From: a virus
Reading direction: 5' to 3' (one strand)
Virus record (IMG/VR): IMGVR_UViG_3300035670_000486
Coordinates: 1 to 41,914 of that record
Length of the DNA stretch: 41,914 nucleotides
Part shown: positions 1,958-40,641 of the stretch, one piece after another
Numbering within the stretch: the stretch's first letter is position 1
Layout of the letters: every line of letters begins with the position of its first letter
Program-made: the position numbers and the translations under genes
Notes under the pieces: generated by a model
The model's input: only the letters and a program-made list of their open reading frames with translations
Databases searched by the model: none
Told to the model about the DNA's origin: nothing

Positions 1958-2767
1958 ATGTACTTCAAAGGCTTCCCTCAATTTCTTTATGATTTCAATT
2001 ATGGTGATAGAGTTAAGACAAGTATTGTAAAAGATATTACACGAAATATCCGTGTAAGGAGAGAAATCTTATCAAATGTTACATTATTTGATGAGTATGA
2101 TATCATCGACGGTGAAACACCAGAAATGATTTCTGAGAAGTTCTATGGAACTCCGGAATACCATTGGGTTGTTATGTTATGTAATGACAAGTATGATTAT
2201 CGCGCAGACTTCCCATTACCAGAAGCTGTTTTGGCGAAACATATTGCTTCTGTGTATAACCCAACTTTATATTCATCTGATTGGTATTGGAATACAGATG
2301 CTAATGGTCAAGTAATTTTTTACATTAGGATTACAAGCGTAGAGGTTCCATTTGACGCTGCGTATTTGACAGCTCCAGTTAAGATCAATATCAGAGATGA
2401 TGATAGTTCGTTTGTCATTGACATCAATTTCCCAGTAGACCCAATTGGTCTAGATGCCGCTACACAATACTTCTATTTTCCAGTCCCAAGCCATAATGAT
2501 GCATGGTTAGTTGCTCATGGCAAAGAAGGATCCACTGCTGATGCTGGCGTTGGTAATGTTGAATTAACTATTAACACTGAAGGTAGAGAATACAATCCAG
2601 TGTATTATGTAAATAATAAAGGTTTTACAATTAACCCAACTGATGGCGCTATTGCTGTTACAGGCGATGTACAGCATAGATTTGAAAATGACCAGAAGCG
2701 AAGAATTAAACTAATTGCACCTAGTTTATTAGAAACACTTCTTAGAAACTATCAAGATGAGCTATAA
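1958..2767 (+). CDS. 53: gp53 baseplate wedge protein
   Basis: This 269-aa wedge protein is recognisable from its N-terminus, FPQFLYDFNYG...VKDITRNIRVR, followed by the LysM-like core DEYDIIDGETPEMISEKFYG and EYHWVVMLCNDKYD (residues about 46-80). These are hallmarks of T4 gp53, which sits at the wedge-hub interface and helps hold six wedges together. It is longer than T4 gp53 (196 aa), with extra sequence after residue ~100 that looks beta-rich. AGGAGG at 1944-1949, inside the end of gp48, is an excellent ribosome-binding site for this start. The stop overlaps the next ATG by one base (TAATG), which suggests translational coupling with the hub gene. Confidence 0.92.
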   Translation: MYFKGFPQFLYDFNYGDRVKTSIVKDITRNIRVRREILSNVTLFDEYDIIDGETPEMISEKFYGTPEYHWVVMLCNDKYDYRADFPLPEAVLAKHIASVYNPTLYSSDWYWNTDANGQVIFYIRITSVEVPFDAAYLTAPVKINIRDDDSSFVIDINFPVDPIGLDAATQYFYFPVPSHNDAWLVAHGKEGSTADAGVGNVELTINTEGREYNPVYYVNNKGFTINPTDGAIAVTGDVQHRFENDQKRRIKLIAPSLLETLLRNYQDEL

Positions 2768-4047
2768 TGCCTGAAATTATTAATCCCGCTAATACGTTAA
2801 GATATGCTGGCGATGTTAACATCGAGAAGGTTGAAATCATCACGCCCAAAGGTATCTACCAAAACGTTAGAAACCAGATTATTCAATTAAGGATTTACGA
2901 GGATATCTTTTCCCCATTTATAACTGGTTCATTGGTATTAAAAGAATCGTTTGACTTGCAATCACTTCTACCATTGATTGGTGAAGAGTTTATTGAAATC
3001 AAAGTTTCAACTCCAACTCTAGACAAACCAATTAGCGGGTTGTTTCATATTTACAAGATGAACGATAAAGTCAACCTTGGTGATAGAGCCGTTGGTTATG
3101 AGTTGAGTTTCATCTCCGCAGAATCCCTAGTTGACTCTAACAAGAAGATTAGCAAGGTTTTTTCTGGTAAGATTTCAGACATAGTTAGGGCTTTCGTAGT
3201 TGATAAGATTGACGGTATGGAGAGCAAGAAGAAGTTCAACGTTGAGAATACTCGTAACACTATTAAGTACGTTTCCCCATATTGGGGTCCAATTCAGAAC
3301 CTAACATTCTTGTCTGAAAACTCTATCTCTGAGAACCAATCTCCTTCGTTCTTGTTTTATGAGAACAGAGATGGTTTTAATTTTAGATCGATTGAAAGCC
3401 TATACAAATCAAAGTCATTCCAGCAATTTATCATGGATAAGTATTCTCGTGATAACTTCCCGCAAGGTGGTAACGCACTGAACATTTTGGAAGATTACAA
3501 ACGTGTTGGTGAAATTGACTTCATTGAGTCATATGACTATATGGATAGATTATCTGGCGGTATGTATAACTCTAAGTTGATATCATATGACTCAACTAAG
3601 AAAACGTACACTGTTAAGAACTTCGATATTAAAAATAAGTTTCCTAGACAGACTCACTTAAACCCATATCCTCTTTTCTCTGATAAAGTTGTTGGTAGAA
3701 GTAACGCTAAACAGATTCTATTCCCAAGAGCGTTTGAAACTTTTACTTCTTTCGGTGATACGACTAACGCTCGTATTCTTCAAGAACGTATTTCTTTCTT
3801 GAAGATGGCAGAAGCGCAAAAGATCAACATCACAGTGGCTGGTCGTTGCGACTATACAGTTGGTCAGGTTGCTGAGTTAACGCTTTATAAAAAGCAACCG
3901 ATGAGAAAAGGTGACAGAAACGAAGATTTGATTGATGACGTAAATAGCGGTAAGTATCTGGTTTCTGCTATCAACCATCAAATTTCAGTAGACGGTCATA
4001 CATGTTTTATTGAATTGATTAAAGATTCTATGAAGAAGAAAGTTTAA
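2767..4047 (+). CDS. 27: gp27-like baseplate hub subunit
   Basis: This 426-aa protein fits the hub protein gp27 (T4 391 aa), the trimeric torus that holds the gp5 spike and matches the tail-tube diameter. Visible signs are the N-terminal beta-barrel pattern NQIIQLRIYEDIFSPFITGS and LPLIGEEFIEIKV, a second barrel (GLFHIYKMND... VGYELSFISAES), and a C-terminal domain with TVAGRCDYTVGQVAELTLYK and GKYLVSAINHQISVDGHT, as in Mu gp44/VgrG-type hub folds. It directly precedes gp5, the partner it must hold. Two bases separate its stop from the gp5 ATG. Assignment rests on fold-level pattern and synteny. Confidence 0.82.
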   Translation: MPEIINPANTLRYAGDVNIEKVEIITPKGIYQNVRNQIIQLRIYEDIFSPFITGSLVLKESFDLQSLLPLIGEEFIEIKVSTPTLDKPISGLFHIYKMNDKVNLGDRAVGYELSFISAESLVDSNKKISKVFSGKISDIVRAFVVDKIDGMESKKKFNVENTRNTIKYVSPYWGPIQNLTFLSENSISENQSPSFLFYENRDGFNFRSIESLYKSKSFQQFIMDKYSRDNFPQGGNALNILEDYKRVGEIDFIESYDYMDRLSGGMYNSKLISYDSTKKTYTVKNFDIKNKFPRQTHLNPYPLFSDKVVGRSNAKQILFPRAFETFTSFGDTTNARILQERISFLKMAEAQKINITVAGRCDYTVGQVAELTLYKKQPMRKGDRNEDLIDDVNSGKYLVSAINHQISVDGHTCFIELIKDSMKKKV

Positions 4048-4049
4048 TA

Positions 4050-7000
4050 ATGGCGCAAAATATTTACTTCGGTGTTGTTGAAAACCGTGTTGACCCACTA
4101 GAACTTGGTCGTTGTCAGGTTCGCGTTGTGGGTTTACACACTCACGATAAGAACTTACTACCAACAGCAGACCTACCATGGTGTGCTTCAATGCAGCCAA
4201 CTACTTCTGCTGCTATGAACGGTATCGGTCATACACCGCTTGGTCCAGTTGAAGGCACTTCAGTTGTCGTAATGTATCTTGACGATTCATACCAGCAAGG
4301 TATCATGTTGGGTGCAGTTGGTGGTATCGCAACGAACCCCGTCCCTATTGACTTTGATGACTCTGGACCAATCGTCGAAACTGATACTGCCAGTAAAGAT
4401 ATTATTCGTTTAAGAAGTATTCCTGGACCACAAAACGGGCAGATTATTAAATTGTATGACCCTGAATATAACCGTCAGGATCTTACATCAAACTTGTCCG
4501 CCAACATGCGCGTCAGCGGGTTCGGTATTGAGTATGGGTCAGTTATTGTTTCCATTGATAGTGGAACACAAATCACCATCTCAAAACCAGTTCGCGAATA
4601 TGTTGAAAACATTATTGAATTTGAACCACCATTGGCTTCTGTTCGAGCTGTTGTTGCTTCAAAGACTAATATCACTGGTTCTACGCTAGACCAAAAATCT
4701 GAACCAGTTAGAACAACACCAGTAAACGGCGAGATCCCAACCCTCCCTCCATTGCCAGAATTTAAAAATACACAAACTAAAGCATCGGAGGGTATCAAGG
4801 CACTTATCGCTGCATGTGATAAAGTTGGTTTGGTTACCAAAGAACAGAAGTGCGCTTTACTAGGTATCGCTGGTGGTGAATCTGGATGGATCCCACAAAA
4901 AGAATCTTACAACTATTCAGACTCTAGGTTGAAACAAATCTTCAGTTTTGCCACTGATGAAGACGTTGTAAAATATGCTAATGCGACTAAGAAGGGTGTA
5001 ACCCGCGAAGAGTTTTTCTCTTGGTGTTATGGTCCAACTAAACGTGGTAAAGGTTTCTTTGGTCACACATCTGATGCCATGGCGGGCAAATACTACGGTC
5101 GTGGTTTCATTCAGTTGACTGGTTATTCAAACTACAAACGATATAACGACATGGCAAAAGCTGCAGGTTTGGATATCGACATTGTCAACGACCCAGATTC
5201 TTTAGACACTGATATTAACGTATCAGCCCTTGTAGCTGCTCTATACATTAAAGACAGAGTATCAAAGGGTGTTAATCCAAATTCACACCCAGACTATTTT
5301 TATGCAGCTAAGAAAGCTGTTGGTGTAAACTCACCAGATATCGCCGCACGTAAACTTCGTTATTATGAATATTTTTACGGTAAACAAGGTAGCGGTGGCG
5401 TTTCTAAAGATGCTGGAGCAGCTATTCCAGCTGTTGAAGACTCAACTGAATCAAAACCAGGACCATCTAAAAAGTCTATCGAGACTGGTTCGTTTGGTTT
5501 GGGGTTCCGCGATCCAAATAATAAATACCCACTTCAAGAATACATCGGCGAATCTGACGTGAACCGTTTGGCTCGTGGTGTTATTGAAGGTACAGTTGTT
5601 AAGTTAAAAGACGCAAACCGCAAGATTGGTATCCCAACTGCTAGTGGTGGACAATGGGATCAACCAGCTGCCCCATTCGGCGCCAAGTATCCTTTCAACA
5701 AGGTTTATGAAACTGAATCAGGGCACATTCAAGAGTTTGACGACACCCCTGGTCAAGAACGTGTTAACACATATCACCGCTCGGGTACATTTACTGAGAT
5801 AGACGCCAACGGCACCCAAGTTAATTATATTGTTGGTGATAACTTTGTTCTTATGGAACAAAATGGATGTATCCACGTTGCAGGTGAATGTAATATCACT
5901 GTTGATGGACAAACAAACATCCTTGCTCGTTCTGACGCTAATATCAAGGTTGAACAAAATGCCATTGTCACAGTTGGTAACAATTTAGAACTCGGTGTGG
6001 CGAATGACGTTTCCATGGCAGTTGGTGGAGATTTTACAGCAAAGGTTGGCGGAACATTTAAACTAGATGCTGGTGATTTGGTTATGAAATCACAATCAGA
6101 CTACACTGTTCAATCAGTTGGCGAATATTCTGCCAAAGGTGCTAAGGTTGCCATTGAGTCTGAGGGTGATGCTGACTTCAACGTTGCTGGAACATTCAAT
6201 ATGAATTATGCTGAAGGTAACTTCGGTGTGAGCGCAGGAAGCGCAGCTGATGTTGGTAATGTTGAGTTGGCTGCTCCTCCAGCTGGTACTCCATTAAATT
6301 CTGTTATTGGGTATTCTATTGCCCCTCCAAGAGAGTTTGAAGAGAAAGCTGTTGTTGAGACCCCAGATGATTGGGATACTCCAGAAGGTAGAGCTGCTGC
6401 GCAAAAACAAGCAGCCACTGAGGGTGTTGTTGGCGCAGTTATTCTTCCTGTTGCAGATGAGGTCGCACCATCACCTACTGGTGGTTCTAACAAACCAGTT
6501 GCCGTTGATAAGAACGACATTCAGAACACAAGAGACTTCACTAACGATTACCGTCTGTCTAAGAACATCGTTCTTGGTATGATGATTGCTGACAAGAAAC
6601 ACGTACTAACCCCTCAGATGTTGCAACCAGCTTCTGGTGGTCAAGAACGTCTATACACTGTACAGGAAATTGTAGGTAACTTGGCTGAAACAGCTAATAA
6701 CATTCTGGAGCCAATCATTGACGTGTTGCCAGGTGGTCGTTCTGGTTATGGCACTCAATGGGTTATCTCTTCAGGGTATCGTTTGAAGGGTGTTATTAAG
6801 AATGAATCTCCAACATCAGACCACTGTAAGGGTCACTGTGTTGACATTGTGTTGAAGTTGCCAGACAAGTACAATAAGACATATGAGATGATTCAGAAGA
6901 TTGAACCATTGATTGTATATGATCAACTTATCTTGGAATACCGTTTCCCAGAATCTGTATGGATTCACATGAGCTATCGTAAGGATAACAACCGTAAGAT

Positions 7001-7103
7001 GGCGTTCACTATGGTAAACGATAAGGCATACAAGCGTAACGCTAAAGGTCTACCAGCTGGATTCTTCTTGTTGAATACTATTCCTCCGAAGGGTACAGTA
7101 TAA
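4050..7103 (+). CDS. 5: gp5-like spike/tail lysozyme with GH19-type glycosidase and C-terminal M15-type peptidase domains
   Basis: At 1017 aa this is far larger than T4 gp5 (575). Domain order: residues ~1-95, an OB-fold (FGVVENRVDPLELGRCQVRV, ending MLGAVGGI); ~96-240, a beta-rich linker; ~245-445, a GH19 chitinase/lysozyme-like domain with LLGIAGGESGW (candidate catalytic Glu277) and YYGRGFIQLTGYSNY (348-362); ~555-730, a Val/Gly-rich strand repeat forming the trimeric beta-helix needle; ~740-820, a Pro/Ala-rich linker; ~830-990, an M15 peptidase-like domain with SSGYR, SDHCKGHCVDI (ligands His925, Asp932) and WIHMSYR (His973). T4 uses a GH24 lysozyme and has no peptidase. Together the domains could cut both glycan strands and peptide stems when the spike enters the periplasm. 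It sits between gp27 and the small PAAR tip gene. Confidence 0.9.
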   Translation: MAQNIYFGVVENRVDPLELGRCQVRVVGLHTHDKNLLPTADLPWCASMQPTTSAAMNGIGHTPLGPVEGTSVVVMYLDDSYQQGIMLGAVGGIATNPVPIDFDDSGPIVETDTASKDIIRLRSIPGPQNGQIIKLYDPEYNRQDLTSNLSANMRVSGFGIEYGSVIVSIDSGTQITISKPVREYVENIIEFEPPLASVRAVVASKTNITGSTLDQKSEPVRTTPVNGEIPTLPPLPEFKNTQTKASEGIKALIAACDKVGLVTKEQKCALLGIAGGESGWIPQKESYNYSDSRLKQIFSFATDEDVVKYANATKKGVTREEFFSWCYGPTKRGKGFFGHTSDAMAGKYYGRGFIQLTGYSNYKRYNDMAKAAGLDIDIVNDPDSLDTDINVSALVAALYIKDRVSKGVNPNSHPDYFYAAKKAVGVNSPDIAARKLRYYEYFYGKQGSGGVSKDAGAAIPAVEDSTESKPGPSKKSIETGSFGLGFRDPNNKYPLQEYIGESDVNRLARGVIEGTVVKLKDANRKIGIPTASGGQWDQPAAPFGAKYPFNKVYETESGHIQEFDDTPGQERVNTYHRSGTFTEIDANGTQVNYIVGDNFVLMEQNGCIHVAGECNITVDGQTNILARSDANIKVEQNAIVTVGNNLELGVANDVSMAVGGDFTAKVGGTFKLDAGDLVMKSQSDYTVQSVGEYSAKGAKVAIESEGDADFNVAGTFNMNYAEGNFGVSAGSAADVGNVELAAPPAGTPLNSVIGYSIAPPREFEEKAVVETPDDWDTPEGRAAAQKQAATEGVVGAVILPVADEVAPSPTGGSNKPVAVDKNDIQNTRDFTNDYRLSKNIVLGMMIADKKHVLTPQMLQPASGGQERLYTVQEIVGNLAETANNILEPIIDVLPGGRSGYGTQWVISSGYRLKGVIKNESPTSDHCKGHCVDIVLKLPDKYNKTYEMIQKIEPLIVYDQLILEYRFPESVWIHMSYRKDNNRKMAFTMVNDKAYKRNAKGLPAGFFLLNTIPPKGTV

Positions 7104-7651
7104 TGGCTGCTGTTTGGAATATTGAAGAACTTCCAAACATAGATGAGTACGTTGCGTTCAGCCATTCGTTCACGTACTCAGATGACGAGTTTCCATCTCA
7201 AACATATACCGTTGTTTTAACTCCTTCGGAGGCTAACCCAGAGACAGTCTTTATTAGTGGCAACAACGTTTCTGGTTACTATTCGGACGTATTCGATATG
7301 TTCGTCAAGTACAAGACAAAAGCTGTACCTAACGAGTATATTGAAGTGAACAACTTTAGAAAAATTGTGGTTGAAAAACTGGAACAAATTATTGAATATA
7401 GTCCAGACTTAACCCCAAACAAGACATACACTTATACTGCGAATGTTTACAGTGAAGGTGACTTAGTTGACGCAAGAGTCTTTACAAAAATTGTTAACAA
7501 TAATTGGGATTTGAACAAGGAGCTTTTGCTTCGTTACATAACAAACACAACTGTTGCCGACGAAACTCTTTACAAACAGTGGATAAATAGTATTAATGCT
7601 GCTCCAGTTAGATGGAAGAACACGTCTAACGTTGTAATTAATTGGATATAA
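7103..7651 (+). CDS. Uncharacterised virion-associated protein, 182 aa
   Basis: I do not recognise this protein. It starts MAAVWNIEELPNIDEYVAFS, is acidic and Tyr/Thr/Val-rich, and looks mainly beta-stranded. There is no signal peptide, membrane segment or catalytic motif. The start overlaps the gp5 stop by one base (TAATG) and the stop is one base before the next gene, so it is embedded in the hub operon and probably translated by coupling. It lies between the spike protein and a collar-domain protein, so a baseplate or peripheral spike component is plausible. Trp-rich ends (QWINS...RWKN...INWI) may form a contact surface. Coding is supported by tight packing and length; the function is unknown. 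Confidence 0.8.
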   Translation: MAAVWNIEELPNIDEYVAFSHSFTYSDDEFPSQTYTVVLTPSEANPETVFISGNNVSGYYSDVFDMFVKYKTKAVPNEYIEVNNFRKIVVEKLEQIIEYSPDLTPNKTYTYTANVYSEGDLVDARVFTKIVNNNWDLNKELLLRYITNTTVADETLYKQWINSINAAPVRWKNTSNVVINWI

Positions 7652-7652
7652 A

Positions 7653-8363
7653 ATGCAAATCCCAAATACGTTTAAACTAAGAACTGGTGCCATTCAATTG
7701 GCAGACTTAGATGCAAACTTCGATATTATCCAAGTTACAGTAAACACGCAAGCTGAGACTATCCTTAAAGTCCAGACAGATATTTCTAACATCCAAACTT
7801 CTATTGCTAACTATTCAGCAATTCCTATCGGATGTATTGTTATGTGGGGTGGTTCTGTATCAAACATACCTTCTGGGTGGAGACTATGTGATGGTACAAA
7901 TAACACCCCAGATTTAAGAGATAGATTTGTTATTGGCGCAAGGTCAGATTCTTCTGGTCCAGCTACAACTTTCGTTACTGGTGCTGATACGAAGTCTGGC
8001 GGTAATAAAGACTCAGTTGTTGTTAGCCACGGGCACACTGCCACATCTTATGCTTCTTCTTCTGGTTCGCTGACATCTGACTCAGACGCTTGGTCTGCTA
8101 CATTTTACGCTTCTGACTCTGGTTTATATGCAGCTGGGGGTTCTGCGTCTAACGCTGGGTATAATGGCGATACATTCTCTGATAATTCATTCTCTTCAAC
8201 TAACAATGAAAACAGAGGTGTCACTATTTCTAGATCAAGAAGCCACAGTCACACCGCAACGATCACAACAACAGTTACAACTACTGTTACGGATTCTGGA
8301 CAGTCTGGCACTAACAGAAACCTACCACCATATTACGCATTAGCGTATATTATGAAGGTTTAA
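7653..8363 (+). CDS. Tail-collar domain protein (gp12-like short fibre/tip)
   Basis: This 236-aa protein has an N-terminal segment found on baseplate-attached fibres (RTGAIQLADLDANFDIIQ) and a short heptad-like region (VNTQAETILKVQTDISNIQT) likely to trimerise. It then has a Phage Tail Collar domain: IPIGCIVMWGGSV, IPSGWRLCDG, TPDLRDRFVIGA, and the terminal NLPPYYALAYIMKV. Between them lies a Ser/Thr-rich loop ending in SRSRSHSHTATIT, whose His-x-His pairs resemble the metal-binding threads of short tail fibre tips. T4 gp12 has the same collar element but is longer (527 aa) and lies elsewhere. Here it sits beside the spike genes, so it may be an accessory adhesin or a spike-proximal fibre. 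Confidence 0.85.
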   Translation: MQIPNTFKLRTGAIQLADLDANFDIIQVTVNTQAETILKVQTDISNIQTSIANYSAIPIGCIVMWGGSVSNIPSGWRLCDGTNNTPDLRDRFVIGARSDSSGPATTFVTGADTKSGGNKDSVVVSHGHTATSYASSSGSLTSDSDAWSATFYASDSGLYAAGGSASNAGYNGDTFSDNSFSSTNNENRGVTISRSRSHSHTATITTTVTTTVTDSGQSGTNRNLPPYYALAYIMKV

Positions 8364-8364
8364 T

Positions 8365-8667
8365 ATGTCGGGGGTTTCAGTTATCGGAGACACTACAACA
8401 GGGCACGAAGGCTATCCACCAACTAAAATGGTATCTTCCCCAGTATCTAAGACCAAGTTTAACGGTAAGAAACCAGGAGTTGTTGATGAGGCTTGTCAGT
8501 TTGCAGCTCATTCTAAAGGCAACTCAGTGCACCCACAGGATATAAGATACCCAGTAGAAGGTTCTAAAAAGACCAAAATTGAAGGTTATTACCTTGTAAG
8601 AATCGGGGATAAGTTAGCAGACGGAGACGTTATTGCTAAAGGATCTGACAACACTTTTATAGAATAA
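8365..8667 (+). CDS. PAAR-like spike tip protein (T4 gp5.4 analogue)
   Basis: This 100-aa protein resembles PAAR-repeat proteins, the small metal-bound cones that cap the gp5/VgrG beta-helix and sharpen the spike. Visible signs are the N-terminal GVSVIGDTTTGHEGYPPT, His residues at HSKGNSVHP, and the terminal IGDKLADGDVIAKGSDNTFI, which matches the PAAR pattern of a GD..xxG..I..GS..V end. T4 gp5.4 (97 aa) is the size match. It follows the collar protein by one base and precedes gp25. If it caps the spike, it must share the tip with the C-terminal peptidase domain of gp5, which is structurally unusual. Zinc or iron ligands cannot be fixed from sequence alone. Confidence 0.82.
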   Translation: MSGVSVIGDTTTGHEGYPPTKMVSSPVSKTKFNGKKPGVVDEACQFAAHSKGNSVHPQDIRYPVEGSKKTKIEGYYLVRIGDKLADGDVIAKGSDNTFIE

Positions 8668-13567: not shown

Positions 13568-16500
13568 ATGGCAGATACAAAATTAGTAAAATCGATCTTA
13601 TTTAAAGCACTCGCTGAGGGTGTTTATAGAGACGTTGTTACGAAGTCTTCATCATATTACTACTTTTTGGGTCAAACCTTACAATGGGTGGATGAGAACA
13701 ATCCACCAGCACCCGTTGACAGTTTAACTTACGAACACGAAGTTCGTAATGAGATTATCACAATCAAAGAGATTAAACCATCAGACGTTGCTTTCGTTGT
13801 AAAGCGTAGAGATTGGGCGTCTGATGTTGTTTATGACATGTATGACGATCGCTATTCTGATGAAGTTCTTGGTTTGAACATTGTTTCCGGTGGTACAAGC
13901 TATATTAACCTTGATGATATTACAATTACTATCGAGGGTGGCGGTGGTTCTGGTGCAACTGCCGTTGTATCTGAACTTACAGGTTCTTCTATCTCTGGCG
14001 TTGTTTTGACTAACCCAGGGTCAGGTTATACTTCTGAACCAACTGTTACAATTACTTCAGCATCTGGTACTGGCGCTGAAATGAAAGCTGTTATTGGTAT
14101 TTCATCTACTGGCGTTCAAAAACTTGAAGATGCGGCTTTCTATGTTGTTACTGACGAATATAACGTCTATAAGTGCCTTGATAACAATAATGGCGCTTTG
14201 TCTAAGATCAAACCTTCTGGCACACAATTAGCACCAATCAAAACTACTGACGGATACATTTGGAAGTTCATGTATAACATTCCAATCAACCTTCGTAACA
14301 AATTCTATACTGATGAGTATATTCCCGTGGTTTCGGCTTTGACCAACCACTTCTACTCAAATGGTACAATTGACAACGTTTATATTACTAACCGTGGTGA
14401 GGGTTATTCTAGCGCGATCGTTTCTGTAACTGGTGATGGTTATAGAGAATCTGACCCTATTCTTATTACAGCTGCAACTGTTGTTACTGAAGGTACTGGT
14501 TATTCTGAGGGTGCTACTATTGAGTTTGCCCCACCATTTACATCATTCTCCCCATTCATTCCAAACGGTTCTGTAAACCTTGGACAAATTATCAAGAATG
14601 GTTATGATGACTTCTATGAAGTCTCAACACCAGGTCAAATGGGACCAGTACAACCTAGTCATAAATTTGGAACAGTTCTGAGTGGAACATCTGCATTAAA
14701 GTATCGTGGTACTACAATGCGCGGAACAGTCACCCTTAGAAATGATAAAAACATAACAGCTATTGAAGTTGTGAGCGGTGGTTCTGCATATACTCAGGTT
14801 CCAACAATTACAATTAATGACCCAACAGGGCAGGGTGCACAGGCTACTGCTATCATTGGCGATTCTTCTATCAGTTCTATCACAATTAATAACTCTGGTT
14901 CAAACCATAATTACGTTTCACCAATCTTAACAGTCATTGGTGGTGGTGGTTCTGGTGCAATCCTACAACCAGTTCTTGTTAACGGTGATATTGACGAAGT
15001 TGTTGTGATATCTGGTGGCCAAGGATACACAGAAGTGCCAACAATTCGTATTGAAGATGTATCTGGATCTGGTTGCACGATGACTGCAATTCTTTCAGGT
15101 TCTCCTATTTTGGACATTCTGATAGTCGATGGAGGTGAAGGATACACGGATCCAGAAGTGGTTATTACTCCAGTTGTTGGTGATTCTGGTTTCGGCGCTA
15201 TCGCTGAAGCTATGGTTGAAACTGGTGTTATTGATGATGTGGTATTAGTTGGTAGTGTTCGTGAAGTTGTACTCATTAGCCCTGGATCTGGTTATTTAAA
15301 ATCACCAGAAGTTACAATTAGTGGCGGCGGTGGCAACTATGCCGTTGTTCGTTCTAAGTTGTACGCTGATAAAGTTATCTCAACAACCGTTATCAATTCT
15401 GGTGAAAACTATCTCGGTGTACCATCTGTAACATTCGGTACACCATGGGCACAAGGCTTAGAAGTTTACACAAACGATCAATTTTCTAATGGATCCAACC
15501 TGTACACTGTTGTTGAAGCTGGCTTCTTCGGTCACGTATCTCCATCTTGGAACAGCGGAACACAATATACTTCTGTTCCATGGGCTGCAACAACTGAAGT
15601 TTTTGAGGGCGATACTGTATATCAAGAAATTTCTGGAGTAAAACACTTATATCTGATCCTTGAAGATGGATATACAAGCACAACTGCCCCTGACTTTACT
15701 TCTGGTGATGGTGCTGGTGCAACATATGGCGTTGGTTTAAGATATGTTGGAGTTGTTGCAAGTTTAAGACGCGATGGTTCTGTTGCAACTGGCTATGCTG
15801 TTATGCGTTATGGCGCTGGCTATTCTGTAACACCAGCTGTTAACATTATCGACAATAATGGCACTGGCGCTGAGGTTAACTTCTTTACCGCCAAATCGGA
15901 AGCTAAGATTTCTGCGATTACAGAAAATGGACAAATCATTTATTTGGTTATTGACGACCCTGGCGTTGGTTACACTAAAGCATCATTGAGCGTTACTGGT
16001 GATGGAGAAGGTGCTTTATTAACAGCTGACTTATCTCTTGGTGCTATTTCTTCCCAACAAGCTAACAATGAAATCTTAACACCAGCTGGCACAATTGATG
16101 CAATCGCTATCATTTCTGGTGGTTATTCTTATGGTGTTGCTAACATCCTTATTGAAGGTGACGGTACTGGCGCAACTGCAAAAGCTATTATTGATCCAAT
16201 CACTCAAGCTATCACTAAAGTTCAGATCGTCACACGTGGTGAGGGCTATACATATGCCAACATCAAAGTTATCGGTAACGGCTCTGGTGCTAATTTAAGA
16301 GCTATCATTTCCCCATATGGTGGTCACGGTAAGAGTTCCCCTGAAGAATTGTATGCAACTAACTTGATGTTCTATACTAACATTTCTAACGACCTTAACC
16401 AAGGTGTTGTGGTTGGTAACGACTATCGCCAAGTTGGTATCATTAAAGACCCTCGTGTATTTGACGGCTTTGAGAGATTCCAAGGTTCATTGGGTTCTGC

Positions 16501-17005
16501 TTGTTTTATTGTACAAGCCCCTGTTAATACGTTGAGATTCTCTAAGGATGAGGAACTTTACATTGAGCGTATTTCTCACCCAGATATTGAATGGGCACCT
16601 TCTTTACTATTGAACACTGGTGACTTTATCTGGACTGAAGAAAGAATTTATGCTGTTGCTGAAGGTGGCGTAGCAGGTTCTTCTGCTCCAACTTCTACTA
16701 CTGGCACTGAAACAAACGGTTTTGCTAAATTGAATTACGTTGGTTCCACAAAACAAAAGAAACGTTATCGTATCGTTTCTTTATCTTCTGCGTTCGCCTT
16801 GGTACAATCTCTTGATAGTGATATTCCAGAGTCTAATGATGTTTTCATTAGAACTGCAAACATATCTGATAACTTTACTGCTATCTCTGTTGGTATGCCA
16901 AACTTTGATAAGTTCTCTGGTCAAGTTTTATATATTGACAACAAACAAGGATTTACACCTTCTGGCGACGAAACTATTACACTAAGAACTATTGTTCAAT
17001 TTTAA
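13568..17005 (+). CDS. 8: gp8 baseplate wedge protein, greatly enlarged by repeat insertions
   Basis: At 1145 aa this is more than three times T4 gp8 (334). The core is recognisable: SYYYFLGQTLQWVDEN near the start, FVVKRRDWASDVVYDMYDD (77-95), then YNVYKCLDNNNGALSKIKPS (198-217) and TTDGYIWKFMYNIPI (226-240) and DEYIPV. The family's C-terminal part appears at GGHGKSSPEELYATNLMFY and NDYRQVGIIKDPR, ending in LYIDNKQGFTPSGDETITLR. Between these lie many GSGYT-type repeats, in about residues 100-170, 270-320, 395-620 and 735-915. Gp8 dimers sit on the outside of the wedge, so the insertions probably project outwards. A 48-bp gap precedes it; the start has only a weak GGA-type site. Confidence 0.9.
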   Translation: MADTKLVKSILFKALAEGVYRDVVTKSSSYYYFLGQTLQWVDENNPPAPVDSLTYEHEVRNEIITIKEIKPSDVAFVVKRRDWASDVVYDMYDDRYSDEVLGLNIVSGGTSYINLDDITITIEGGGGSGATAVVSELTGSSISGVVLTNPGSGYTSEPTVTITSASGTGAEMKAVIGISSTGVQKLEDAAFYVVTDEYNVYKCLDNNNGALSKIKPSGTQLAPIKTTDGYIWKFMYNIPINLRNKFYTDEYIPVVSALTNHFYSNGTIDNVYITNRGEGYSSAIVSVTGDGYRESDPILITAATVVTEGTGYSEGATIEFAPPFTSFSPFIPNGSVNLGQIIKNGYDDFYEVSTPGQMGPVQPSHKFGTVLSGTSALKYRGTTMRGTVTLRNDKNITAIEVVSGGSAYTQVPTITINDPTGQGAQATAIIGDSSISSITINNSGSNHNYVSPILTVIGGGGSGAILQPVLVNGDIDEVVVISGGQGYTEVPTIRIEDVSGSGCTMTAILSGSPILDILIVDGGEGYTDPEVVITPVVGDSGFGAIAEAMVETGVIDDVVLVGSVREVVLISPGSGYLKSPEVTISGGGGNYAVVRSKLYADKVISTTVINSGENYLGVPSVTFGTPWAQGLEVYTNDQFSNGSNLYTVVEAGFFGHVSPSWNSGTQYTSVPWAATTEVFEGDTVYQEISGVKHLYLILEDGYTSTTAPDFTSGDGAGATYGVGLRYVGVVASLRRDGSVATGYAVMRYGAGYSVTPAVNIIDNNGTGAEVNFFTAKSEAKISAITENGQIIYLVIDDPGVGYTKASLSVTGDGEGALLTADLSLGAISSQQANNEILTPAGTIDAIAIISGGYSYGVANILIEGDGTGATAKAIIDPITQAITKVQIVTRGEGYTYANIKVIGNGSGANLRAIISPYGGHGKSSPEELYATNLMFYTNISNDLNQGVVVGNDYRQVGIIKDPRVFDGFERFQGSLGSACFIVQAPVNTLRFSKDEELYIERISHPDIEWAPSLLLNTGDFIWTEERIYAVAEGGVAGSSAPTSTTGTETNGFAKLNYVGSTKQKKRYRIVSLSSAFALVQSLDSDIPESNDVFIRTANISDNFTAISVGMPNFDKFSGQVLYIDNKQGFTPSGDETITLRTIVQF
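13870..16320 (+). repeat. GSGYT-type repeat insertions in gp8
   Basis: Repeated units follow the pattern (I/V)..GG.GYT..PTVTI.GGGG.GA.A.A(V/I). Clear copies include NPGSGYTSEPTVTITSASGT, ISGGQGYTEVPTIRIED, LISPGSGYLKSPEVTISGGG and VTRGEGYTYANIKVIGNGSG. Blocks are separated by conserved gp8 segments, so repeats entered at several loops, not at one end. Units are diverged in DNA, unlike the fresh copies in gp18. Confidence 0.85.
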
Positions 17006-37725: not shown

Positions 37726-40641
37726 ATGCCGTTTCAATTATCTCCAGGCGTTGCAGTCGTAGAAAAAGACTTTACTTCTATCGTTCCTGCCGTAGCAACC
37801 TCCATCGGTGCGTTTGCTGGTCAGTTCGACTGGGGTCCAGTTTTGGAACCAATTACGGTTACATCAGAAGACGAACTAGTTCGTCGTTTTGGTACACCAA
37901 ACAACAATAACTTCCAGTCTTTCTTTACTGCTGCTAACTTCCTATCTTACTCTAATAACCTATTGCTAGTTCGTCAGCAGACTACTAACATGAAGAACGC
38001 TGTTGTTACTCCAACAGGTGCTTTAACTTCAGTCGACGTTATCCTTGCTGGTACTGGTTACGACTCTCTAGCAACACCACCAACTGTACAGATTCTGACA
38101 GAAGGTTTGTTGGGCGTGGTCACTGTTACTAACCAAGGTTCTGGCTACACTAATACAGAAATATCACACCCAACAGTTGCAGTTGATGATCCAACTGGTT
38201 TTGGTGCTGTATTGGAAGCAAACGTTTCTAATGGACAAATTATTTCTATTGACGTTATTGCTCCAGGAGCTAACTATACTTCACCTACTATCACTATTAC
38301 TGGTGGTAACGGTACTGGCGCAACTGCAACTGTAACCACAGTCGATGTTCAAGAACCAGGTGGTATCCAACCAACTGCTAGTGCAGTTCTTTCTGGTGGC
38401 GCAATTACTGCTATTAACCTATCTTCTGCTGGTTCTGGTTATACAACTGCCCCAACAGTGGCAATTGTTACAGCTACTGGAGATTTTGGTACTGGCGCAA
38501 CTGCAACTGCAGTTCTTTCAGGGTCTGGTTTAACTGGTATCACTGTTGGCTCTACTGGTTCTAACTACACTTCACCAACAGTATCATTTACTGGCGGTGG
38601 CGGCACTGGCGCAGAAGCTTCTGCAGTTCTTGCTGGTCCAGTTTCTTCTATTACTTTAATCAACGCTGGTTCTGGTTATACAACTTCTCCAACAGTAACT
38701 ATTACTGGTGGTGGTGGTTCTGGTGCTACTGCAACTGCAACTACTGACGGTAACGTTATTACTTCTATCTCCATTGTTTCTGGTGGCGCAGGATATACTT
38801 CTGAACCAACAGTAACTATTACTGGTGGTGGTGGTTCTGGTGCTGTTGCTGACTCTGTTGTTAACTATAACATCATTAGCTCTATCACTATTACTTCCGC
38901 TGGTTCTGGTTATACAACTGCCCCAACAGTAGTTATTACTGATTCCACTGGTACTGGCGCCGATGCAACTGCTACAATTGGAACTAGTTCTATTGCATCT
39001 ATCTCTATCGCAAACGGTGGTACTGGATATAAAAACACTCCAACAGTAACTATTACTGGCGGCGGTGGTTCTGGCGCAACAGTAGGTTCTGTCACTGTTG
39101 GTGCTTCTTCTGTAACTGGCATTACAGTTATTGAAGGTGGTACTGGTCTTTCTGCACCTCCAGCGATCTTGATTGAGGATGCTCCATCTCAGAACGGTGT
39201 TACTGCTATTGCTACTGCAAACATCACTACTGCTGGTGTTGCAATTCTTAACGGTCAATTCTACTCTGCAAACTTCATCAACGGTGGTGGTGTTACTGGT
39301 GAGTGGGCTGCTAAGTATCCAGGCAAACTAGGTAACTCTCTAAAAGTTTCTATGGCTGACCGCGATACTTACGCAAACTGGGCGTACAAAGACGAGTTCG
39401 ATGCTACTCCAGGAACATCTGAAGGTGCTTCTGTTATCGGTGGTTCTAATGATGAAATGCACATTATCATCATCGATGAAAAGGGTTATATCTCTGGCGT
39501 TGAGAATGCAGTTCTAGAAAAGTTCGCGTTCGTATCTAAGGCTTCTGATAACAAGAAAACAGACGGCACAAACAACTACTACAAAGACGTTATCAACGGT
39601 CGTTCTGAGTGGTTGTGGTGGACTGATCACACTGATATGGTTACTGGCGGTTACGAGAACAATAACTGGGGTCAACCAATGGCTGGAACTTCGTTCAAGT
39701 CTATGACTGCCCCTCTAACTCAGTCTCTATCTGGTGGTATCGACGATAACTCTTCAACTGAAGGTCAGAAGATGGCTGCGTATGAGTTATTCGCTAACGC
39801 TACTCTTTATGACGTAAGCCTAATTATGATGGGTAAATCAAGCTCTACTGTTGTTAACTATGTTATCGACAATGTTGCTTTAGAGCGTTTGGATGCTGTT
39901 GTGTTCATCTCCCCAGAAGATACAGAAACTGGCGAAGTTATTATCGGCGATGGTTCTGTTCACGTTAACAAGATCATTGACTTCCGTAATGAATTGAATT
40001 CTAACTCTTACTCTGTAATGGATTCTGGTTACAAGTACCAGTATGACCGTTACAATGACGTGTATCGCTGGGTTCCATTGAACGGTGACATTGCTGGTCT
40101 ATGTGCTCGTACTGACTACACTAACGACCCATGGTGGTCTCCAGGTGGTCTGAACCGTGGTCAGATCAAGAACGTTGTTCGCTTGTCTTGCAACCCAAAC
40201 CAGACTATGCGCGATAACCTGTATCGTAACTCTGTTAACCCAGTTGTTACTTTCCCAGGTCAAGGTACTGTTCTGTTCGGCGATAAGACTCTATTGGCTA
40301 AACCATCTGCATTCGACCGTATCAACGTTCGTCGCTTGTTTATCGTTCTTGAGAAGTCTATCGCAACTGCTGCTAAGTATCAGTTGTTTGAGTTCAACGA
40401 TGCGTTCACTCGCGGTCAGTTCAAGAACCTAATTGAACCGTTCCTACGTGACGTACAAGGTCGTCGTGGTATTACCGACTTCCTAGTTAAGTGTGATGAG
40501 TCTAACAACAGTGGTGAAGTTATCGATCGTAACGAATTCGTTGCTGACATCTTTGTTAAACCAACTCGTTCTATCAACTTTATTACTCTTAACTTCGTGG
40601 CTGCTCGTTCTGCTATTGCCTTCAGCGAGCTAGGTGGCTAA
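37726..40641 (+). CDS. 18: gp18 tail sheath protein with ~400-residue repeat insertion
   Basis: This 971-aa contractile sheath subunit (T4 gp18 659) starts LSPGVAVVEKDFTSIVPAVA, with GAFAGQFDWGPV and NFLSYSNNLLLVRQ, all typical. At about residue 97 the family sequence is interrupted by ten GSGYT-type repeats, ending near residue 500. It resumes at GEWAAKYPGKLGNSLKVSMA. The C-terminal core (ERLDAVVFISPEDTETGE, RWVPLNGDIAGLCARTD, DPWWSPGGLNRGQIKNVV, GQGTVLFGDKTLL, RINVRRLFIVLEKSIATAAK, YQLFEFNDAFTRGQFKNLIE) is highly conserved. Every arginine codon I read in this gene is CGN, which suits high expression, as does AAGGAG at 37713-37718. The insertion should form an extra domain on the sheath exterior. 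It lies between gp17 and gp19 as in T4. Confidence 0.97.
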   Translation: MPFQLSPGVAVVEKDFTSIVPAVATSIGAFAGQFDWGPVLEPITVTSEDELVRRFGTPNNNNFQSFFTAANFLSYSNNLLLVRQQTTNMKNAVVTPTGALTSVDVILAGTGYDSLATPPTVQILTEGLLGVVTVTNQGSGYTNTEISHPTVAVDDPTGFGAVLEANVSNGQIISIDVIAPGANYTSPTITITGGNGTGATATVTTVDVQEPGGIQPTASAVLSGGAITAINLSSAGSGYTTAPTVAIVTATGDFGTGATATAVLSGSGLTGITVGSTGSNYTSPTVSFTGGGGTGAEASAVLAGPVSSITLINAGSGYTTSPTVTITGGGGSGATATATTDGNVITSISIVSGGAGYTSEPTVTITGGGGSGAVADSVVNYNIISSITITSAGSGYTTAPTVVITDSTGTGADATATIGTSSIASISIANGGTGYKNTPTVTITGGGGSGATVGSVTVGASSVTGITVIEGGTGLSAPPAILIEDAPSQNGVTAIATANITTAGVAILNGQFYSANFINGGGVTGEWAAKYPGKLGNSLKVSMADRDTYANWAYKDEFDATPGTSEGASVIGGSNDEMHIIIIDEKGYISGVENAVLEKFAFVSKASDNKKTDGTNNYYKDVINGRSEWLWWTDHTDMVTGGYENNNWGQPMAGTSFKSMTAPLTQSLSGGIDDNSSTEGQKMAAYELFANATLYDVSLIMMGKSSSTVVNYVIDNVALERLDAVVFISPEDTETGEVIIGDGSVHVNKIIDFRNELNSNSYSVMDSGYKYQYDRYNDVYRWVPLNGDIAGLCARTDYTNDPWWSPGGLNRGQIKNVVRLSCNPNQTMRDNLYRNSVNPVVTFPGQGTVLFGDKTLLAKPSAFDRINVRRLFIVLEKSIATAAKYQLFEFNDAFTRGQFKNLIEPFLRDVQGRRGITDFLVKCDESNNSGEVIDRNEFVADIFVKPTRSINFITLNFVAARSAIAFSELGG
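38014..39226 (+). repeat. Tandem ~39-codon (117-bp) repeats inside the sheath gene
   Basis: About ten protein units follow the pattern SAGSGYTTAPTVTITGGGGS with GA.A.A and a following I..I strand. Units start about every 39 residues (Gly-Tyr turns near 236, 278, 315, 354, 393, 432, 472). At DNA level the segment beginning CCAACAGTA recurs at 38689, 38806, 38923 and 39040, exactly 117 bp apart. The copies at 38689-38727 and 38806-38844 are identical over 39 bases. Confidence 0.92.

Follow-up and report, generated by a model that had tools for sequence, protein, structure and literature searches.

In phage T4, the baseplate spike protein gp5 (1k28; 5iv5) combines an OB-fold domain, a GH24 lysozyme and a triple-stranded beta-helix; it ends at this needle without a C-terminal peptidase, and the PAAR protein gp5.4 is separate. 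A related anatomy is found in type VI secretion, where the evolved VgrG protein VgrG2b likewise has a gp5-like needle, a linker region and a distal zinc metallopeptidase; this HEXXH-type peptidase is a toxin paired with an immunity protein, the linker holds a TTR-like domain, and no inner glycosidase is described (PMC6899460). Among virion lysins, a 2017 review gave two-enzyme proteins only for phages of Gram-positive hosts, and just one endopeptidase demonstrated for a Gram-negative phage (PMC5380687). Furthermore, a 2021 survey described the PAAR proteins of jumbo phages as unfused and stand-alone (PMC7824862).

The window analysed here is a 41,914-base IMG/VR record from an uncultured phage, whose terminase shares about 50% identity with the terminases of T4-like cyanophages and of a Pelagibacter phage. 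According to Pfam, PHROG and the T4 gp5 alignment, the ORF at 4050..7103 (plus strand, as are all the features below) codes for a T4-gp5-type baseplate central spike of a T4-like phage. This protein of 1017 aa shares with T4 the order OB-glycosidase-triple beta-helix, the baseplate block and the separate PAAR gene. It differs in its two predicted peptidoglycan-hydrolase domains, an inner domain of GH19 rather than GH24 type and, past the needle, an M15-type zinc peptidase. The reading we favour, with a probability of about 0.78, is that of a T4-like central spike with GH19 at the needle base and a tethered M15 at the tip, both cutting the wall at entry.

The spike ORF is intact and lies between a gp27-like hub/tail gene (2767..4047; PHROG 350 tail protein, 8e-77), whose product would be gp27 by gene order, and further baseplate genes. 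It begins 2 bases past the stop of this upstream neighbour, its own stop codon overlaps the next start, and the surrounding block, with tail-tube-cap, gp53, gp25, gp6-position and PAAR genes, is the neighbourhood of a T4-type gp5. The gp27-like and gp5 products come from separate phage tail-block genes, so that the protein is not an evolved VgrG, in which gp27 and gp5 of a type VI system are fused. An artefact of ORF fusion was ruled out, since 38 distinct contigs and Synechococcus phage BUCT-ZZ01 show the same open architecture. Between gp5 and the collar fibre, positions 7103-7651 hold a 182-aa gene (PHROG 1168). Many 'YTSxPTVTITGGGGSGATA'-like repeats were also spotted by eye in the translations at the sheath position (37726-40641, 971 aa) and at a wedge position (13568-17005, 1145 aa).

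Five segments follow each other along the spike. The OB-fold domain (residues 1-98, 4050..4343) aligns with T4 gp5 (1k28) and matches Pfam Gp5_OB PF06714 over residues 33-96 (3.4e-25). It is followed by the GH19 domain (residues 243-450) and by the gp5C triple-stranded beta-helix needle (residues ~531-735, 5640..6254), which was recognised by sequence only, through the T4 gp5 alignment (spanning 512-679), PHROG 430 (5e-86) and comparison with needle-only gp5 proteins; its distal boundary is approximate because the alignment is poor past the conserved needle start. A Pro/Ala-rich linker (residues ~736-825, 6255..6524; 85-93 residues long in aligned relatives) joins the needle to the M15-type domain (residues 826-1000, 6525..7049). 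By homology with T4, three gp5 chains would form a trimer with an OB collar and a beta-helix needle. Pooled over close pairs, dN/dS was 0.046 for OB, 0.058 for M15, 0.061 for GH19 and 0.069 for the needle, with the highest value, 0.097, in the linker before M15; the M15 domain is thus held about as strictly as the remaining protein.

The inner domain (4776..5399) is of the GH19 type by profile and by modelled fold. Its Pfam score exceeds the curated cut-off of 25.5 bits both in the whole protein (25.6) and in the domain alone (26.9), and 45 of 46 aligned relatives also match, the best at 3.5e-9. A profile of the 46 members finds, in the PDB, the GH19 endolysin 8p8e (3.5e-15) and the SPN1S endolysin 4ok7 (4e-11). 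The predicted structure (pLDDT 86.9) gives Foldseek matches to 9ms6, 8p8e, 4ok7 and 9eoi with E values of 2e-5 to 4e-5, and a further one to the dual-function type VI effector TseP. The motif GGESGW contains E277 (4878-4880), and YYGRGFIQLTGYSNY lies near residue 348. E277 and E285 (4902-4904) are invariant in 26 full-length gp5 proteins and are, by analogy only, candidate catalytic residues.

The case for the C-terminal domain rests on relatives and fold, because the single sequence falls short in Pfam: the window sequence alone scores 17.4 bits with PF08291, where the curated cut-off is 23.2, and for this reason the domain is filed as M15-type, a divergent relative. The spike C-terminus matches PHROG 894 (2.5e-11), and 59 of 89 aligned homologues match PF08291 at E<=0.01, the best at 4.9e-22. 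The model of the domain (pLDDT 94.4, pTM 0.90) retrieves the zinc DD-peptidase 1LBU first among PDB structures, a moderate similarity (probability 0.99, TM 0.42, E 0.016), followed by Hedgehog proteins and, lower down, ChiX and VanXY, which places it in the M15/Hedgehog/DD-peptidase superfamily. The zinc-site pattern of this superfamily, SxHxxGxxxD and WxH with a Glu, is present as S-D-H925-C-K-G-H-C-V-D932 and W-I-H973, numbered through alignments. By homology H925, D932 and H973 are the putative zinc ligands, which the fold match suggests would converge in three dimensions, and E963 is the likely catalytic residue. R911, S923, H925, G928, D932, D958, Q959, L962, E963 and H973 are invariant in the 89 sequences, including the H, D, E and H of the zinc site. 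Peptidase activity is a prediction from sequence and model, and M15 enzymes mostly cleave peptidoglycan peptides.

Hedgehog proteins suggest another reading of the same data. In a PDB search by sequence profile they ranked above the M15 enzymes, in the reverse of the order given by fold, and H925, D932 and H973 fall on SLHYEGRAVD and IHCS of Shh, its zinc-ligand motifs. Hedgehog retains zinc ligands, hence their conservation is no proof of activity, and the M15 fold of the spike might be non-enzymatic, binding peptidoglycan stems, a receptor or the PAAR cap and leaving GH19 as the sole cutter. The closeness of Hedgehogs by profile and the moderate similarity to active M15 enzymes would agree with this, but the invariance of all zinc ligands, E963, R911 and D958-Q959 in 89 diverse sequences would not. 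Furthermore, no inner enzyme is recognised in the gp5 of pf16, which carries M15 on gp5, or of Astolliot and Vibrio 1.244.A, which carry it on PAAR, so that M15 is the only candidate wall cutter of these spikes. We regard a purely binding domain as unlikely.

Together, the motif and profile matches of the spike are far beyond chance, and they bear out the first-pass annotation, which had proposed two cell-wall-cutting domains on one spike, GH19-type inside and M15-type after the beta-helix. The motifs lie at the residues it had named (E277, YYGRGFIQLTGYSNY, H925, D932 and H973), and its domain limits of 245-445 and 830-990 agree with ours. The outcomes that it had named as refuting did not arise: the inner domain is matched by a GH19 profile, relatives of M15 type and an M15 fold were found, and the ligands align with the Hedgehog zinc motifs.

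The same annotation had also held that an enzyme at the tip is at odds with the PAAR cap, and here the locus suggests otherwise. A 100-aa PAAR tip protein of the T4 gp5.4 type is coded by a separate gene at 8365..8667, 1.3 kb downstream of the spike gene (PHROG 281, 1.1e-15; PDB 9f4b_BA, 5e-5; T4 gp5.4 5iv5_ZA, 0.0015), and a separate PAAR gene is likewise close by in 48 of the 62 gp5-fused M15 loci with at least 1.5 kb of downstream sequence. Since the linker spans about 90 residues, PAAR could keep its place in the presence of M15, whose position is therefore not paradoxical; we infer that M15 would lie at or beyond the needle tip, perhaps beside PAAR. A tip role is further suggested by Astolliot, Milchi and Vibrio 1.244.A, in which PAAR itself carries the M15 and gp5 ends at the needle. 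PAAR-M15 genes were seen in cultured phages, including the jumbo phage PA5oct, at L111:5416-6438, L112:5374-6381, L006:5934-6938, L007:5340-6329 and L113:4455-5459. An 'ESI-MS/MS' note on the PA5oct protein was discounted as virion evidence, since nucleotide-metabolism enzymes of this phage bear the same note.

Related loci were gathered by similarity to the window, so that the following counts are not those of a random sample: 76 of 89 distinct IMG/VR M15 loci code for a gp5 in which M15 follows the needle (41 of the 76 also include GH19 in the ORF), two carry a PAAR-M15 fusion, a third (L100) probably does, and the remaining ones have M15 alone or are truncated. In cultured phage records a matching needle was present in 1898 and a matching M15, anywhere, in only 78. 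The gp5 of BUCT-ZZ01 is OB-GH19-needle-M15, that of pf16 is OB-needle-M15, that of Cr30 pairs a tail-lysozyme-like inner domain with an M15 of this kind at the tip, and that of Melnitz spans two genes with a VanY-like inner domain. PAAR-M15 is found among named phages in Astolliot, Milchi, Vibrio 1.244.A, PA5oct and Peetri. Beside the tip M15 the inner position thus varies between GH19, GH24 (L058, 2.3e-36), a VgrG3-like domain (PF21277 in L093, 5.8e-55), the Cr30-type lysozyme, a VanY-like domain, an unassigned domain and none recognised. In the M15 tree, which is indicative only because it was made by a quick method and has several long branches, GH19 carriers do not all cluster together, and those with PAAR split into two groups, although two origins are not forced. 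M15 is a recurrent tip module on gp5 or PAAR, and the inner enzyme an exchangeable cassette.

Several of these loci have unusual forms of gp5. At L050:1258-6519, one open frame codes for a gp5 of 1754 aa that has needle and M15 together with two GH19-like domains, and hence three wall-enzyme domains per chain. L067 (3889-4880), L079, L088, L080 and L085 have, between OB and needle, inner domains that are related to each other and match nothing in Pfam; they may represent a further class of wall enzyme. Two adjacent genes, one for OB and enzyme and one for needle and M15, make up gp5 in L093 (3026-4117 and ~4117-6450) and Melnitz (L004:4959-5999 and 5999-8002), and also in L075, L077, L089, L092, L094, L097, L099, L102, L106, L107 and L110. 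T4 gp5 is cleaved by a protease during maturation, and the split point lies near the corresponding site.

The two enzymes probably act at entry, because the single M15 sits in the spike and endolysin-size GH19 frames are separate. Nine long virus records each have one M15 of the spike type, inside the spike, and nine of 10 further records have a single M15, the tenth, BUCT-ZZ01, having an additional stand-alone 182-aa M15 frame. Separate GH19 frames of endolysin size, 209 and 216 aa, were present in two of the four long relatives searched. It could be supposed that both domains serve lysis from within and form a multi-domain endolysin that became fused to gp5 by chance, given that endolysin is the label of both PHROG 181 and PHROG 894 and that stand-alone phage M15 endolysins exist. 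These two separate frames, the place of the gene in a baseplate block and the intact OB and needle domains speak against such a fusion, which we hold to be extremely improbable.

Our preferred reading, a wall-cutting spike, would work as follows. Each of the three chains would place a GH19 glycosidase by the needle base, where T4 has its lysozyme, and an M15 peptidase on its linker at the distal end, with the PAAR protein capping the needle tip. Sheath contraction would drive the needle through the outer membrane and bring both enzymes to the peptidoglycan, where M15 may cleave stem peptides or cross-links and GH19 glycan strands, so that a hole would open in the wall for the tail tube. It is plausible that the peptidase would be delivered first. 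The family's preference for peptidoglycan peptides and the sufficiency of an entry role weigh against an M15 that is injected to damage the cell or keep out competing phages. In anatomy the spike does resemble evolved VgrGs that end in a peptidase, such as VgrG2b (PMC6899460), and the likeness to VgrG effectors drawn in the first-pass annotation stands to that extent; nothing indicates a toxic effector of the type VI kind, wall breaching in the periplasm is the simpler explanation, and we think an injected effector very unlikely.

We lean, with some reserve, towards a wider view, in which many T4-like and some jumbo phages bear a conserved M15 warhead at the spike tip, on gp5 (three copies) or on PAAR (one) and as a rule not on both, with the inner enzyme swapped. 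If true, phages would have their own equivalent of the tip effectors of type VI secretion, and two published views would need correction, that the PAAR proteins of jumbo phages stand alone and that virion lysins with two enzymes are confined to phages of Gram-positive hosts; the loci described here do not fit either generalisation (PMC7824862, PMC5380687). A class of wall-cutting enzymes would then be hidden under 'hub' or 'PAAR' annotations. If M15 is active, the module offers a way to test whether a peptidase goes first in contractile tails, and it bears on the origin of type VI secretion tip effectors.

Full-text searches of the open-access literature found no description of a gp5-M15 spike, whose single parts are known and whose architecture is already deposited and thus not unique to the window. 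The gp5 of BUCT-ZZ01 (UTS51949.1) has the same four domains at about 30% identity to the window spike. UniProt A0A6J7WXM8, a Gp5 OB protein of 1025 aa whose M15 domain shows 65% identity in the fold alignment, probably has this architecture too; both are annotated only by their hub or OB part. Cyanophage A-1(L) also has glycan-cutting and peptidase domains together on a single trimeric baseplate protein, gp15, whose endoglucanase and peptidase domains have shown cell-hydrolysing activity, but its enzymes are on the hub, neither on the spike nor past the needle (PMC10966104). The PAAR-M15 proteins of PA5oct, Peetri, Astolliot, Milchi and Vibrio 1.244.A bear a homologous M15 at the spike tip and differ in its carrier, PAAR in probably one copy as against gp5 in three.
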